From: Candidatus Levybacteria bacterium RIFCSPHIGHO2_01_FULL_38_26
Lineage (GTDB): Bacteria > Patescibacteriota > Microgenomatia > Levybacterales > UBA12049
Direction: 5' to 3'
Assembly (NCBI GenBank): GCA_001782075.1
Contig: MFNO01000038.1
Location: 1-34,201 of the forward strand
DNA length: 34,201 bases
The notes under the pieces were generated by a model, which ran no database searches, had not been told where the DNA came from, and saw only the letters and a list, made by a program, of their open reading frames with translations. Positions 16,454 to 20,025 of the stretch are shown here, piece after piece (the first letter of the stretch is position 1; each line of letters starts with the position of its first letter). The position numbers and the translations under genes are program-made.

Positions 16454-17419
16454 TTAATTACCATTTATTGCTCCTGGTTCCACTGTTCCTTCGGGTAATT
16501 CTGCTCTTTTATAAGATCCAATTATTTTACTCGGAGCATTGTATTTTTTTGGGTCCTTAAGCGTTTCTAAAGCATCTATTACAGATGTATCTTTTCGGTG
16601 GCCATTAAAAGACATCAGGAAAAAGAATTCTCCCATACGATTTGACGTAGGATATGAGCGAATATTCGTAAGGTTGATGTTGTTGCCAGCCAAGACGGTA
16701 AGACAATCTTTTAACATCCCTACGCGATTTTCTTGAGGATAAATTATTGCTGTCGTGATGTCATCTCCGGTCGGTTCTGTTTCCCCTCTCCCAATTAGAT
16801 AAAAACGCGTAGCGTTATAAGGATTGTCTCCTATATTTTCGGCGAGGATTGGCATTTTGTGAATTAAAGCAACTCTTCTGCTGGCAATTGCTGCTGCATT
16901 TGACATGTCTTTAATTTCTTGAACAGCCTTAGCTGTGCTTGTTGTTTCTTGCAATACTGCTTTTGGATAATTTAGTGCAATAAATTTCTTCGATTGACCG
17001 AGTGCTTGCTCGTGAGATAAAATTGTAATTATCTCCTCATTCGTTCTTCCTATCAACATATGCCGAATGGGTACAATAGCTTCGGCAAGTATAGAGGTGT
17101 TTTTGGTTTGAACTAATTTTTTCCAAACATCTACAACGTCTCCCTCAATTAAGTTCTCAACCGGTATAACCCCGATGTCGTATTCTCCTTTATCTACCTT
17201 TTCCACAACTTCCGTATTTTTTTGAAGAAAATCTTTTTGCATTCTGTGCTGCTCGTTACCGGTTAGTAAAACTTCTCTGGCTTCTTCCGTATAAGTTCCT
17301 TCAGGTCCCAAACAGGCTACTTTTGAAGATAGTCTTCCCGGATAAAGTTCTACCTTAACAAGCGATCCGCTGACCTCAAGCCCTACCATTTTATTATTGG
17401 CATGTAATTGCTCAGTCAT
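16454..17419 (-). CDS. pheA: Prephenate dehydratase with ACT domain
   Basis: VACLGPEGTYTEEA, GVIPVENLIEG, ATRFYLIGRGE, ACT segment NINLTNIRSYPTSNRMGEFFFLMSFNGH. Confidence 0.92.
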   Translation of the reverse strand: MTEQLHANNKMVGLEVSGSLVKVELYPGRLSSKVACLGPEGTYTEEAREVLLTGNEQHRMQKDFLQKNTEVVEKVDKGEYDIGVIPVENLIEGDVVDVWKKLVQTKNTSILAEAIVPIRHMLIGRTNEEIITILSHEQALGQSKKFIALNYPKAVLQETTSTAKAVQEIKDMSNAAAIASRRVALIHKMPILAENIGDNPYNATRFYLIGRGETEPTGDDITTAIIYPQENRVGMLKDCLTVLAGNNINLTNIRSYPTSNRMGEFFFLMSFNGHRKDTSVIDALETLKDPKKYNAPSKIIGSYKRAELPEGTVEPGAINGN

Positions 17420-17449: not shown

Positions 17450-17493
17450 AAAAAAACCTCCGCTTAATTCCTGCTTTTGCAGGTATCGGAGGT
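17450..17493 (-). terminator. Leader (attenuator) terminator of pheA, regions 3:4
   Basis: Minus strand ACCTCCG-ATA-CCTGC-AAAA-GCAGG-AATTAAG-CGGAGGT then TTTTTTT. Confidence 0.85.
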
Positions 17494-17533
17494 CGTTTCT
17501 AGTTAGATTTTTTTTACAAAAACCAACCTCCGC

Positions 17534-17581
17534 TTAAGCGAAGGTAAAGAAAAACAAAAATGTCTTTCCTGATTTCTGCAT
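17534..17581 (-). CDS. pheL: Phe-rich leader peptide MQKSGKTFLFFFTFA (PheL-like)
   Basis: ATG CAG AAA TCA GGA AAG ACA TTT TTG TTT TTC TTT ACC TTC GCT TAA; 5 Phe of 15 residues; stop lies in loop of hairpin 1:2. Confidence 0.85.
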   Translation of the reverse strand: MQKSGKTFLFFFTFA

Positions 17582-17654: not shown

Positions 17655-18068
17655 TTAATCCTGTTTTATTTTTGACCTAAGCGGTTTATAGCCTGCCATT
17701 TGAGTTACTTCATTTAACTCATTCACAAGTGGAGCATGAAGCGCATTGAATTCTGCTCTGGAAATTAGTTTATTTTTTCTTTGCTGGGATAAATCTGCTA
17801 GAATTTGGTTTAGTTCTGCAAGCCTTGTTGTTTCTGGACTTTTTACTTTTTGAGATTGTTTTACTGGCGTGTTAGGCTCAGTGGTTTGTTGGACGAGCGG
17901 AGAGACATATAAAATATGCGAGCGAGGACGATTCTGCTTTAGTATAGATTCTTTTGTTGATAATCCAGATTTTGTTTTTGTCCATCTATCAACATTTTGG
18001 ATAGCTTTATCTGCTGTATTATCTGGAAATGTTTTATTAGACAAAAGTATTTCAGCTCGGTTTCTCAT
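17655..18068 (-). CDS. Hypothetical protein under Ile-rich leader control
   Basis: MRNRAEILLSNKTFPDNTADKAIQNVDRW...; ATG at 18068 preferred over TTG at 18086. Confidence 0.7.
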   Translation of the reverse strand: MRNRAEILLSNKTFPDNTADKAIQNVDRWTKTKSGLSTKESILKQNRPRSHILYVSPLVQQTTEPNTPVKQSQKVKSPETTRLAELNQILADLSQQRKNKLISRAEFNALHAPLVNELNEVTQMAGYKPLRSKIKQD

Positions 18069-18084
18069 AATATTAATTTTCCAC

Positions 18085-18108
18085 AAAAAAACCTCCCGTT
18101 TGGGAGGC
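18085..18108 (-). terminator. Leader terminator, regions 3:4
   Basis: Minus strand GCCTCCC-AAAC-GGGAGGT then T-run. Confidence 0.85.
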
Positions 18109-18137
18109 TTGCGCTTTTTGCGTTTAGAATTTTCTAA

Positions 18138-18206
18138 CTACGCAAAATAACCTCCCTTTGGAGAGGTAATAATAATGCTAATAATTGAGAGTGTTTTCAA
18201 TTTCAT
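18138..18206 (-). CDS. Ile-rich leader peptide MKLKTLSIISIIITSPKGGYFA
   Basis: ATG AAA TTG AAA ACA CTC TCA ATT ATT AGC ATT ATT ATT ACC TCT CCA AAG GGA GGT TAT TTT GCG TAG. Confidence 0.72.
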   Translation of the reverse strand: MKLKTLSIISIIITSPKGGYFA

Positions 18207-18334: not shown

Positions 18335-19195
18335 TTACTTAATAATTGACCTTGCGCTACCGTCAAAAATAGTTCCAGCAAGAGGCAGCGATTCGTTTTT
18401 ATTTGTAGACGGTTTGACTAGATCAACTTCCCACCATGTGTCGTTTCCATCAGAATTAAGATCAATTCTGGATGCGTTGAAGCCACCTTCTCCAAAATGC
18501 GATCGTATTTGATCTGCAGTTTTAAATAGCTTGTTGTTATCCCTAAGGTATTCGTGGTAGCGATAAACTGCAAATTTTAACTTTTTTTGTTCGCTAATTT
18601 CTGAATTAGCCGCAGTCTTGTGTCTAATTTTTCGTCTTAGCTTACTTAGTTCTCTGTTTATGTCGTAATTTACCAAAGACGGATGATGTAGATTCAGAAA
18701 AACTAATCCGCCAGGTTTAGCTATACGGTAAGTTTCTGCTAGAGCTTGTGATGGCATAAAGTCAAAAGCCATATTACTTACTACTGCGTTAAACTGTTCG
18801 TCTCTAAATGGTAAAGTTCCTCCTGTTGCTTGTACGTGTTCATAGTCTTTTGCCAGTAGGCTAGCTTTGGGAATGCTTGCGATATCTAATGTGACAACCT
18901 GACATGGTGGTTTAATATCGTAGATATCTTTCCATTCTTTTTCCAGGATTTGTCTTCCTGCTCCAAGATCAAGCACATAACTGTCTTTAGGTAGAGCGTT
19001 GATATAAGGATGCACCCTTTTAATTAGCGAGGTTCTACTTAGATCAGGGCTATCTTCTTTATTTCTCCAAAGTTTATTCTTCGCATTCTTTGTATCCAGA
19101 TTATAGAACGAGCTATAGAAGGCATACGACTCGCCTTCAGGATCGGATGCCGGATCGGGTATATGTGATCTAAATTCTGATTCTAACAACACCAT
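18335..19195 (-). CDS. Class I SAM-dependent methyltransferase
   Basis: VLDLGAGR, TGGTLPFRDEQFNAVVSNMAFDF, IAKPGGLVFLNLHH; ATG at 19195 preferred over TTG at 19207, which overlaps the terminator tract. Confidence 0.85.
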   Translation of the reverse strand: MVLLESEFRSHIPDPASDPEGESYAFYSSFYNLDTKNAKNKLWRNKEDSPDLSRTSLIKRVHPYINALPKDSYVLDLGAGRQILEKEWKDIYDIKPPCQVVTLDIASIPKASLLAKDYEHVQATGGTLPFRDEQFNAVVSNMAFDFMPSQALAETYRIAKPGGLVFLNLHHPSLVNYDINRELSKLRRKIRHKTAANSEISEQKKLKFAVYRYHEYLRDNNKLFKTADQIRSHFGEGGFNASRIDLNSDGNDTWWEVDLVKPSTNKNESLPLAGTIFDGSARSIIK

Positions 19196-19204
19196 ATTTT
19201 GCCA

Positions 19205-19230
19205 CAAAAAAAACCCGCCTATTGGCGGGA
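19205..19230 (-). terminator. Leader terminator, regions 3:4
   Basis: Minus strand TCCCGCC-AATA-GGCGGGT then T-run. Confidence 0.86.
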
Positions 19231-19267
19231 TTTCTAAACGGTTTATAAACTAAACCATCCTCCCGCC

Positions 19268-19318
19268 CTAACGGGTAAGAAGGAGGACTAATCTAATAGA
19301 TAAACTTTTTGATTTCAT
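19268..19318 (-). CDS. Leu-rich leader peptide MKSKSLSIRLVLLLTR
   Basis: ATG AAA TCA AAA AGT TTA TCT ATT AGA TTA GTC CTC CTT CTT ACC CGT TAG; 5 Leu of 16 residues. Confidence 0.72.
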   Translation of the reverse strand: MKSKSLSIRLVLLLTR

Positions 19319-19329
19319 TGTTATCACAG

Positions 19330-19359
19330 ATTTTACACAATCCTACTACTTTCTGTCAA
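19330..19359 (-). promoter_or_regulatory. Promoter of Leu-rich leader unit
   Basis: TTGACA, 18 nt spacer, TAAAAT. Confidence 0.85.
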
Positions 19360-19368
19360 GATGGGAAA

Positions 19369-20025
19369 TTAACCCGTCTGCGTTGCTACCACGCGTTCGT
19401 TAGAGAGGCCAAATGTAGTGCCGTGTTTTTTAAACATTGCCCAGTATTGTCTTTTGTTTTTCTTGCTTTGGAATGCGGAAAGCCACGCTCCGGAGTCTTC
19501 AATTTTCATACGGGCGATTATAATTACAGATTTAAGCCACTGGAAAAAGTTGACATGGTATCTTCCTGGTTTTACTACTTGCTGTTGAACTGTAACTTCT
19601 CTAAATTGAATTTGCAGCTCATCTGTGCTTTCAATCAACTGCTGTAGTTCAATTTGTATTTCTTCAAGAGTTCTTTTTGTCTCCTTATTAAATTCCAGTT
19701 GCGTGGTACTTTCACCACGACGCATTTCTCGAAGATACGTGGTTCCTATTTCTCCCCCTTCGATCCCAAAAAATTCATTTTTTTCTTCGTTTTCTATATG
19801 CTCTTTTAGAACCAGTTCTTTGCCCTCAACAAGATCTCCGCTTAATTCTGGATGTATTTTTTGCTCTGTGTGGGAAGTTTTAAGAACCTGGTCTTTAGCA
19901 TCCAATCCGCCTTCTTTTACTAAATCTTTAACAAAAGAATCTCCTACAGTCCTAGTGAGGTTTCTGAATGTTTCGATGCTGTTATCGTTTATAAATTGCT
20001 GTTTTCTGCGGAGTGTTTTATTCAT
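19369..20025 (-). CDS. Hypothetical protein, possibly DUF5660-like
   Basis: Long ORF with ATG start; helical/coiled-coil middle (TLEEIQIELQQLIESTDELQIQ); family recalled only. Confidence 0.6.
   Translation of the reverse strand: MNKTLRRKQQFINDNSIETFRNLTRTVGDSFVKDLVKEGGLDAKDQVLKTSHTEQKIHPELSGDLVEGKELVLKEHIENEEKNEFFGIEGGEIGTTYLREMRRGESTTQLEFNKETKRTLEEIQIELQQLIESTDELQIQFREVTVQQQVVKPGRYHVNFFQWLKSVIIIARMKIEDSGAWLSAFQSKKNKRQYWAMFKKHGTTFGLSNERVVATQTG

Follow-up and report, generated by a model that had tools for sequence, protein, structure and literature searches.

A putative leucine-sensing attenuator upstream of a methyltransferase gene in Levybacterales and its relatives across the class

In the analysed stretch (hereafter the window), a 34,201-nt contig of Candidatus Levybacteria bacterium RIFCSPHIGHO2_01_FULL_38_26, a short Leu-rich open reading frame and a set of competing hairpins precede the gene for a class I SAM-dependent methyltransferase (MT). 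The locus raises the question of whether these hairpins form an attenuator that senses leucine and, if so, why a methyltransferase should be under its control. Ribosome-mediated transcription attenuators are well known from the leu operon (leuL) of enteric bacteria and, further, from trp, his, phe and ilv. To our knowledge, little is known of gene regulation in Patescibacteria (Candidate Phyla Radiation), whose members are believed to depend on other cells for their living; a literature search, with subscription papers and preprints outside its scope, found no paper linking attenuation or leader peptides with Patescibacteria or Microgenomates. Our reading, to which we assign a probability of about 0.86, is that the site is a ribosome-mediated transcription attenuator predicted to sense charged tRNA-Leu, located in an island of starvation-reporting switches. 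The evidence consists of anatomy, conservation, covariation, codon placement, the cognate match between leader and target in relatives, and the cognate depletion of ORFans; from it we infer stalling, read-through, leaderless initiation and a starvation role, and any methylation target of the MT is likewise a matter of inference.

Anatomy of the Leu element and its tandem neighbours

The coordinates that an earlier note had assigned to the promoter, leader, Leu codons, regions 2, 3 and 4, T8 tract and MT start are correct to the base (Table 1). The promoter is the best-scoring promoter-like site of the region (11/12), and the leader ATG lies 11 nt past the TAAAAT box, so that the leader mRNA would be leaderless or nearly so. 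The leader is a short ORF with a run of one amino acid's codons, its residues L V L L L being followed by Thr-Arg-stop, and its Leu codons lie at –24, –18, –15 and –12 from region 2. The 2:3 antiterminator and the 3:4 terminator with its U-run are mutually exclusive, and a protector pairing 1:2 is present in the free-leader folds of the Leu element and of the Ile and Phe elements of the window.

Three attenuators stand in tandem on the minus strand, the Leu site among them (Leu-MT, Ile-137-aa ORFan and Phe-pheA); the Ile (18243–18085) and Phe (17620–17450) elements are of like design and lie beyond what the earlier note had described. Both strands of the 34-kb window were scanned for a terminator stem of at least six exact pairs with a T-run, an upstream exact copy of region 4 and a short ORF, yielding three sites, all with ATG leaders, compared with a mean of 0.05 sites with an ATG leader (maximum 1) in 100 dinucleotide shuffles of the window. 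Prephenate dehydratase genes preceded by a Phe leader are a textbook case, and the Phe-pheA element serves as an internal positive control. The N-terminal 29 aa of the ORFan behind the Ile leader resemble the Ile-leader target of a related genome (G016); queried as a 143-aa frame, this ORFan gave no relative in 373 genomes of the class at E 0.001 and no phage relative. With Rfam gathering thresholds, a scan of the window identified seven tRNAs only, with no known leader family and no T-box. Between pheA and tRNA-Val, we also observed a 67-aa ORF with a strong Shine-Dalgarno (SD) motif (AAAGGAGGTGA; 16411–16208, minus strand), for which no relative was found in the fetched loci outside the window's own genome.

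Table 1. Positions in the window of the three attenuators, their leaders and their target genes
Feature	Positions	Strand	Details
Leu promoter	19330..19359	minus	TTGACA 19359-19354, 18-nt spacer, TAAAAT 19335-19330
Leu leader ORF	19268..19318	minus	MKSKSLSIRLVLLLTR; ATG at 19318; control codons TTA, CTC, CTT, CTT; CTC CTT CTT 19285-19277; stop TAG 19270-19268
Leu region 1	19272..19286	minus	CCTCC 19286-19282 and CCCG 19275-19272; pairs with region 2 in free-leader fold
Leu region 2	19261..19267	minus	GGCGGGA; abutted by leader TAG
Stem inside 2:3 hairpin	19236..19260	minus	10 pairs in fold; feature across the family
Leu region 3	19224..19230	minus	TCCCGCC
Leu region 4 and T8	19206..19219	minus	GGCGGGT 19219-19213, T8 19213-19206; terminator with region 3
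MT, class I SAM-dependent methyltransferase	18335..19195	minus	286 aa; ATG 19195; Methyltransf_11 (Pfam)
Ile leader ORF	18138..18206	minus	MKLKTLSIISIIITSPKGGYFA; promoter TTGACT-18-TATATT 18243-18214
Ile attenuator	18085..18166	minus	region 1 CCTCTCC 18166-18160; region 2 GGGAGG 18156-18151; region 3 GCCTCCC 18108-18102; region 4 GGGAGG 18097-18092; T7 18091-18085
Ile-leader target	17655..18068	minus	137-aa ORFan; no Pfam family
Phe leader ORF	17534..17581	minus	MQKSGKTFLFFFTFA; promoter TTGACA 17620-17615, TATAAT 17596-17591
Phe attenuator	17450..17533	minus	region 2 GCGGAGG; region 3 ACCTCCG 17493-17487; region 4 CGGAGG 17462-17457; T7
Phe-leader target, prephenate dehydratase PheA	16454..17419	minus	ACT domain; Pfam PF00800 2.8e-46

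For the Leu element, RNA polymerase would start a few bases before the leader ATG, and a ribosome would load at the 5' end of the transcript without an SD sequence. With ample Leu, the ribosome would pass TTA and CTC CTT CTT to the TAG and mask region 2, the 3:4 terminator would form and the MT gene would be off. When Leu-tRNA is short, the ribosome would halt at the codons 12–24 nt before region 2, covering region 1; the free region 2 could pair with region 3 before region 4 is made, and the polymerase would continue into the MT gene. The stem between regions 2 and 3 may hold both close as soon as they are made, aiding the 2:3 pairing. When region 1 was deleted, the minimum-energy fold was still the 3:4 terminator in 5/6 elements examined; because the terminator fold persists, the order of synthesis, and not stability alone, must decide the switch.

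This scheme resembles the mechanism of ribosome-mediated amino-acid attenuation as described in PMC1183508, with a leader rich in the sensed residue, competing 2:3 and 3:4 pairings, a U-run and a stop beside region 2. It differs from leuL-type attenuators in the near-leaderless start of the leader without SD and the stem inside the antiterminator (both seen across the class-wide family of elements), in targets that encode an MT, an ORFan or a nucleotidyltransferase-like protein together with a genome in which no LeuA/IlvD-type gene was found, and in the presence of tandem switches for three different amino acids within a single island. T-box riboswitches respond to uncharged tRNA by amino acid, whereas sensing here would proceed through a translated leader.

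Conservation of the leader and exchange of its targets

The earlier note had read the site as an attenuator whose leader and 2:3 pairing should recur in relatives, and the comparison supports this reading. The leader ORF is kept in two further genera of the family, in G016 (MNSKVLSVRLVLLITR) at the syntenic position and in G066 (MKIRCLSINLVLLLTR) in the same island; the 2:3 pairing is kept in both and in three further genomes (G169, G160 and G317), and the inner stem is kept with different bases. The three Leu elements of the window, G016 and G066 have a mean column identity of 75%, and in the stem between regions 2 and 3 their bases differ while the pairing is kept.

The locus in G016 and G066 runs from tRNA-Leu(gag, cag) through two conserved genes, tRNA-Leu(tag), tig and DUF5660 to the island and tRNA-Val(gac); in G066, homologues of the window's thrS, infC, rpmI, rplT, pheS and pheT (named by eye) come next. 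The G016 leader lies directly after DUF5660. By comparison, the G066 leader belongs to the second switch of the island, downstream of an Ile switch (SIIEIIAS) that precedes an HMGL-like/LeuA-dimer enzyme, probably a citramalate synthase. The genes behind the Leu leader differ: the MT in the window, a 246-aa protein in G016 and a 59-aa ORFan in G066. The 246-aa protein has no Pfam match and carries a GS...D-x-D pattern, which we take to be nucleotidyltransferase-like; its relatives stand behind Leu/Ile leaders in G150 (38% identity) and G258 (36% identity), making it a second case of a single type of target that stands behind branched-chain leaders in two families. This Pfam-unmatched family was observed at L215:4561-5298, L088:2979-3779 and L087:4149-5018.

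DUF5660 is present in 58/73 genomes of the family, and 30 loci were taken for a downstream test. An ATG leader with an attenuator lies within 600 nt after DUF5660 in 12/30 loci, with differing targets, and in 0/30 within the 1500 nt before it, indicating that the switch stays and the gene changes. A strict pattern of the leader DNA recovered only the window's genome and G066 (2/73); the G016 leader, with Leu-Ile-Thr in place of Leu-Leu-Thr, escaped this pattern and was located by synteny. On this comparison, it is the Leu leader that is conserved, and its pairing with the MT is not fixed.

The MT family occurs in 7/373 class genomes (the window's own, G169, G160, G102, G110, G317 and G115), and a Leu-rich leader attenuator lies directly upstream in four of them: the window's own, G169 (leader ending in LLIKGLLLVKSPREVLA), G160 (TVSLLLVKRPRGVLA) and G317 (IISLLTVLICKGQEGSVA). 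These three leaders differ from that of the window, and the G160 attenuator was read by eye, as its 2:3 pairing has G-T pairs missed by the exact scan. G169 and G160 belong to one genus, so the association of MT and Leu leader extends over three families, the window's included; no Leu leader attenuator was found upstream of the homologues in G102, G110 and G115. The attenuator-less homologue on G102 contig C33 (L044/L104) lies about 2 kb from pheA and adjoins a gene resembling a class I aminotransferase, again an amino-acid neighbourhood. The assignment of the target as a methyltransferase, made in the earlier note, stands as far as class I; Pfam, NCBIfam, a PDB profile search and Foldseek yielded generic methyltransferases and no substrate, and the AlphaFold model is moderate (pLDDT 74).

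A class-wide family of amino-acid switches

The pattern GGAGG-N25..55-CCTCC-N3..33-GGAGG-N-T5 occurs in 173/373 genomes of the class, compared with 3 for the reversed pattern, and a GGCGG version in 36/119 relatives (reversed control, 4). Outside the class, the GGAGG pattern matched 10/159 genomes, few with a convincing leader, and a phylum-wide element was rejected on this count. MAFFT alignment of 11 elements scattered region 3 over columns, and therefore patterns were used and no covariance model. At least 148 distinct GGAGG elements were gathered, 140 with a leader and a usable target; among the matches listed, 32 of these 140 leaders could not be typed. We conclude from these patterns that the window's Leu site is a member of a class-wide family of amino-acid switches. 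The earlier note had held Leu control of a methyltransferase to be an unusual arrangement; a Leu leader before an MT is indeed seen, and the site is not singular.

The elements share an anatomy beyond the searched core. In 105 typed leaders among the matches listed, the cognate codons peak at 19–24 nt ahead of region 2 (a bin in which they make up 71% of codons), the typing itself having drawn on positions –48 to –9, and the leader stop lies at a median of +14 nt from the region 2 core. Outside the searched core, the 2:3 pairing extends by 3.09 pairs, compared with 2.20 ± 0.10 for swapped partners, among the matches listed. The spacer between regions 2 and 3 self-folds with a mean minimum free energy of –6.9 kcal/mol, compared with –3.7 kcal/mol when shuffled (n = 147, among the matches listed). 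In the 95 leaders with a single possible ATG among the matches listed, a –10 box lies 12–19 nt before the ATG in 56, ten times background per position, and an SD-like motif is present in 3; the mRNA on which the family's leaders are translated thus seems to be leaderless or nearly so. Leu leaders use CTT/CTC for 64% of codons (25% in their target genes) and Ile leaders ATT for 79% (43% in target genes). Of the three frames, that of the leader shows the strongest bias in 73/142 elements among the matches listed, which is above one third and not overwhelming. Across the class, the leaders have mainly the control residue and its placement in common.

The residue of the leader follows the pathway of the target. 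With known-pathway targets picked by sequence motif, the leader agrees in 24/24 cases of the 140-element table among the matches listed: DAHP synthase 7/7 and prephenate dehydratase 4/4 with aromatic leaders, cysteine synthase (cysK) 7/7 with Cys leaders, aspartokinase 4/4 with Thr/Lys/Ile leaders, and IlvD 1/1 and acetolactate synthase (ilvB) 1/1 with Ile/Leu/Val leaders. By the same criteria, the pass rate of the other elements among the matches listed is 4% (Cys), 29–30% (aromatic), 55% (Thr/Lys/Ile) and 68% (branched-chain), so that agreement for the last two weighs little by this count. In the GGCGG set, Leu leaders MNSKNLLNLLLLTV and MKIVFNLLTLALLTV precede LeuA-like genes (G055 and G013) and His leaders NHHST and NHYHY precede HisS-like genes (G029 and G032), these genes being named by eye. 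An aromatic leader attenuator lies upstream on the same strand in 7/30 fetched pheA loci, the window's included. Cys-rich leaders (CCC, CCI) were observed before cysteine synthase at L061–L063, L067, L068, L107, L109 and L110; Cys attenuators are not known to be a common kind. At L112 and L162, leaders with NNN/NNY and Ser (beginning MNPRVDVNNNFSPSNSSLSMSAGR) precede HAD-phosphatase-like genes and are candidates for Asn or Ser sensing; at the attenuator-like sites L069–L076 (family f15), no amino-acid type is evident in the leaders.

Among the matches listed, the 61 large targets contain by Pfam 9 DAHP synthases, 8 PLP-dependent PALP enzymes, 4 PDT, 4 amino-acid kinases and 2 MT, plus others, while the 76 small targets gave one convincing domain, a LuxR/sigma-type HTH. 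Most Leu leaders precede small ORFans, often with several switches in tandem. In another family, such switches lie between aspS and recJ/CCA-transferase genes (named by eye). At this second hotspot (L085–L098, family f5; L174–L175, f9), several attenuators follow one another, and the gene behind each is a small ORFan, different every time, or else pheA, DAHP synthase or acetolactate synthase.

The ORFans are depleted in the residue of their leader. For 61 typed representatives of 71 clusters among the matches listed (untyped ones dropped), ORFans under Leu leaders contain 5.7% Leu compared with 9.3% (permutation p 1e-4), those under Ile leaders 4.2% Ile compared with 7.1% (p 0.002) and those under aromatic leaders 4.3% aromatic residues compared with 6.7% (p 0.001), with a combined p of 5e-5. 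This depletion is sequence evidence, independent of the leader, which suggests synthesis under that very starvation. In the window, PheA is Phe-poor (2.2%) and the Ile target slightly Ile-poor (5.8%). The MT was considered as a Leu-poor protein of the same kind and rejected, as it contains 9.8% Leu. Low cognate bias is known for amino-acid biosynthetic enzymes, as stated by Fasani and Savageau (2014, PMC4209129); the likeness is that proteins needed in starvation for an amino acid hold little of it, and the difference is that here ORFans are grouped by the controlling leader and the window's MT is without the bias.

Rival readings and a possible starvation locus

The end of DUF5660, at 19369, lies about 100 nt upstream of the hairpins, where a terminator would be natural, and the hairpins might be ordinary terminators, one for DUF5660 and one stray, with the leader ORF arising by chance. 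Three such sites in a row, set against 0.05 expected, the conservation of leader peptide, Leu codons and hairpins in G016 and G066, and the match of leader residue to pathway make this explanation extremely unlikely. The similarity of the leader peptide in three genera could also reflect a small protein with a function of its own, the RNA structure being secondary; given that leaders across the class share mainly the control residue and its placement, and that their stops lie by region 2 as attenuation needs, we find this scarcely credible. A methyltransferase behind a short leader recalls the erm-type macrolide attenuators, in which a leader peptide precedes a methyltransferase, and the MT weakly matches the NCBIfam profile of the 23S rRNA G745 methyltransferase (E 9e-4, far below the cut-off). 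An erm-like switch, in which a drug-stalled ribosome in the leader would open an rRNA methyltransferase gene, is nevertheless very improbable: the same leader stands before non-MT genes in G016 and G066, the leaders of sister elements follow amino-acid identity and track the target pathway, and the better profile matches of the MT are generic small-molecule methyltransferases.

A further reading accepts Leu attenuation and takes the MT to act in the metabolism of Leu (or of its keto acid), under feedback on an unrecognised step. The occurrence of MT homologues behind Leu-rich leaders in three families and the Leu leaders before LeuA-like genes speak for it. Against it stand the failure to find a LeuA/IlvD-type gene in the window's genome, the presence of the MT in so few class genomes and the same leader before unrelated genes in relatives; the fold tells nothing on the substrate. 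We regard this reading as unlikely. Attenuator 'regulons' or 'mobile attenuators', in which many common elements derive from IS terminators or repeats, are described by Naville and Gautheret (2010, PMC2965389); as there, related attenuators lie upstream of non-homologous genes, but here the element is syntenic, the leader peptide is kept and the downstream gene changes.

Attenuation by charged tRNA-Leu is our preferred reading. In the window's genome (98.5% complete), neither an HMGL-like (LeuA/CimA) family nor an ILVD_EDD (dihydroxy-acid dehydratase) family was found, with controls at 14/14. The usual routes to Leu and Ile are probably closed to the organism, and because no LeuA/CimA- or IlvD-type gene was found, the Leu and Ile switches probably report the starvation of an auxotroph dependent on other organisms and do not control synthesis. 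The target is the gene for the sensed amino acid in Phe-pheA and not in the window's Leu and Ile elements; a cognate target is usual but no part of the mechanism, and was not taken as defining.

The MT would accordingly be one effector of a starvation response and, together with the ORFans and the nucleotidyltransferase-like protein, may form a starvation programme. The Leu, Ile and Phe switches sit in a syntenic island from DUF5660 to tRNA-Val/thrS, in which targets are exchanged between genera and the switches stay. We put at even odds the broader proposal that this island, with the aspS-recJ island, is a starvation locus of host-dependent bacteria whose fixed leaderless Leu/Ile/Phe attenuators act as sockets for fast-changing effectors; these would be the methyltransferase, the nucleotidyltransferase-like protein and many ORFans in which the missing amino acid is scarce. 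If true, a cell unable to make Leu or Ile would answer its shortage with an amino-acid-specific, non-biosynthetic programme. Class-wide switches whose leader names the sensed amino acid would provide a readable map of nutrient signals, singling out dozens of unstudied genes that should be on when a named amino acid runs short, and would make the response of an auxotrophic symbiont to a failing supply directly testable.
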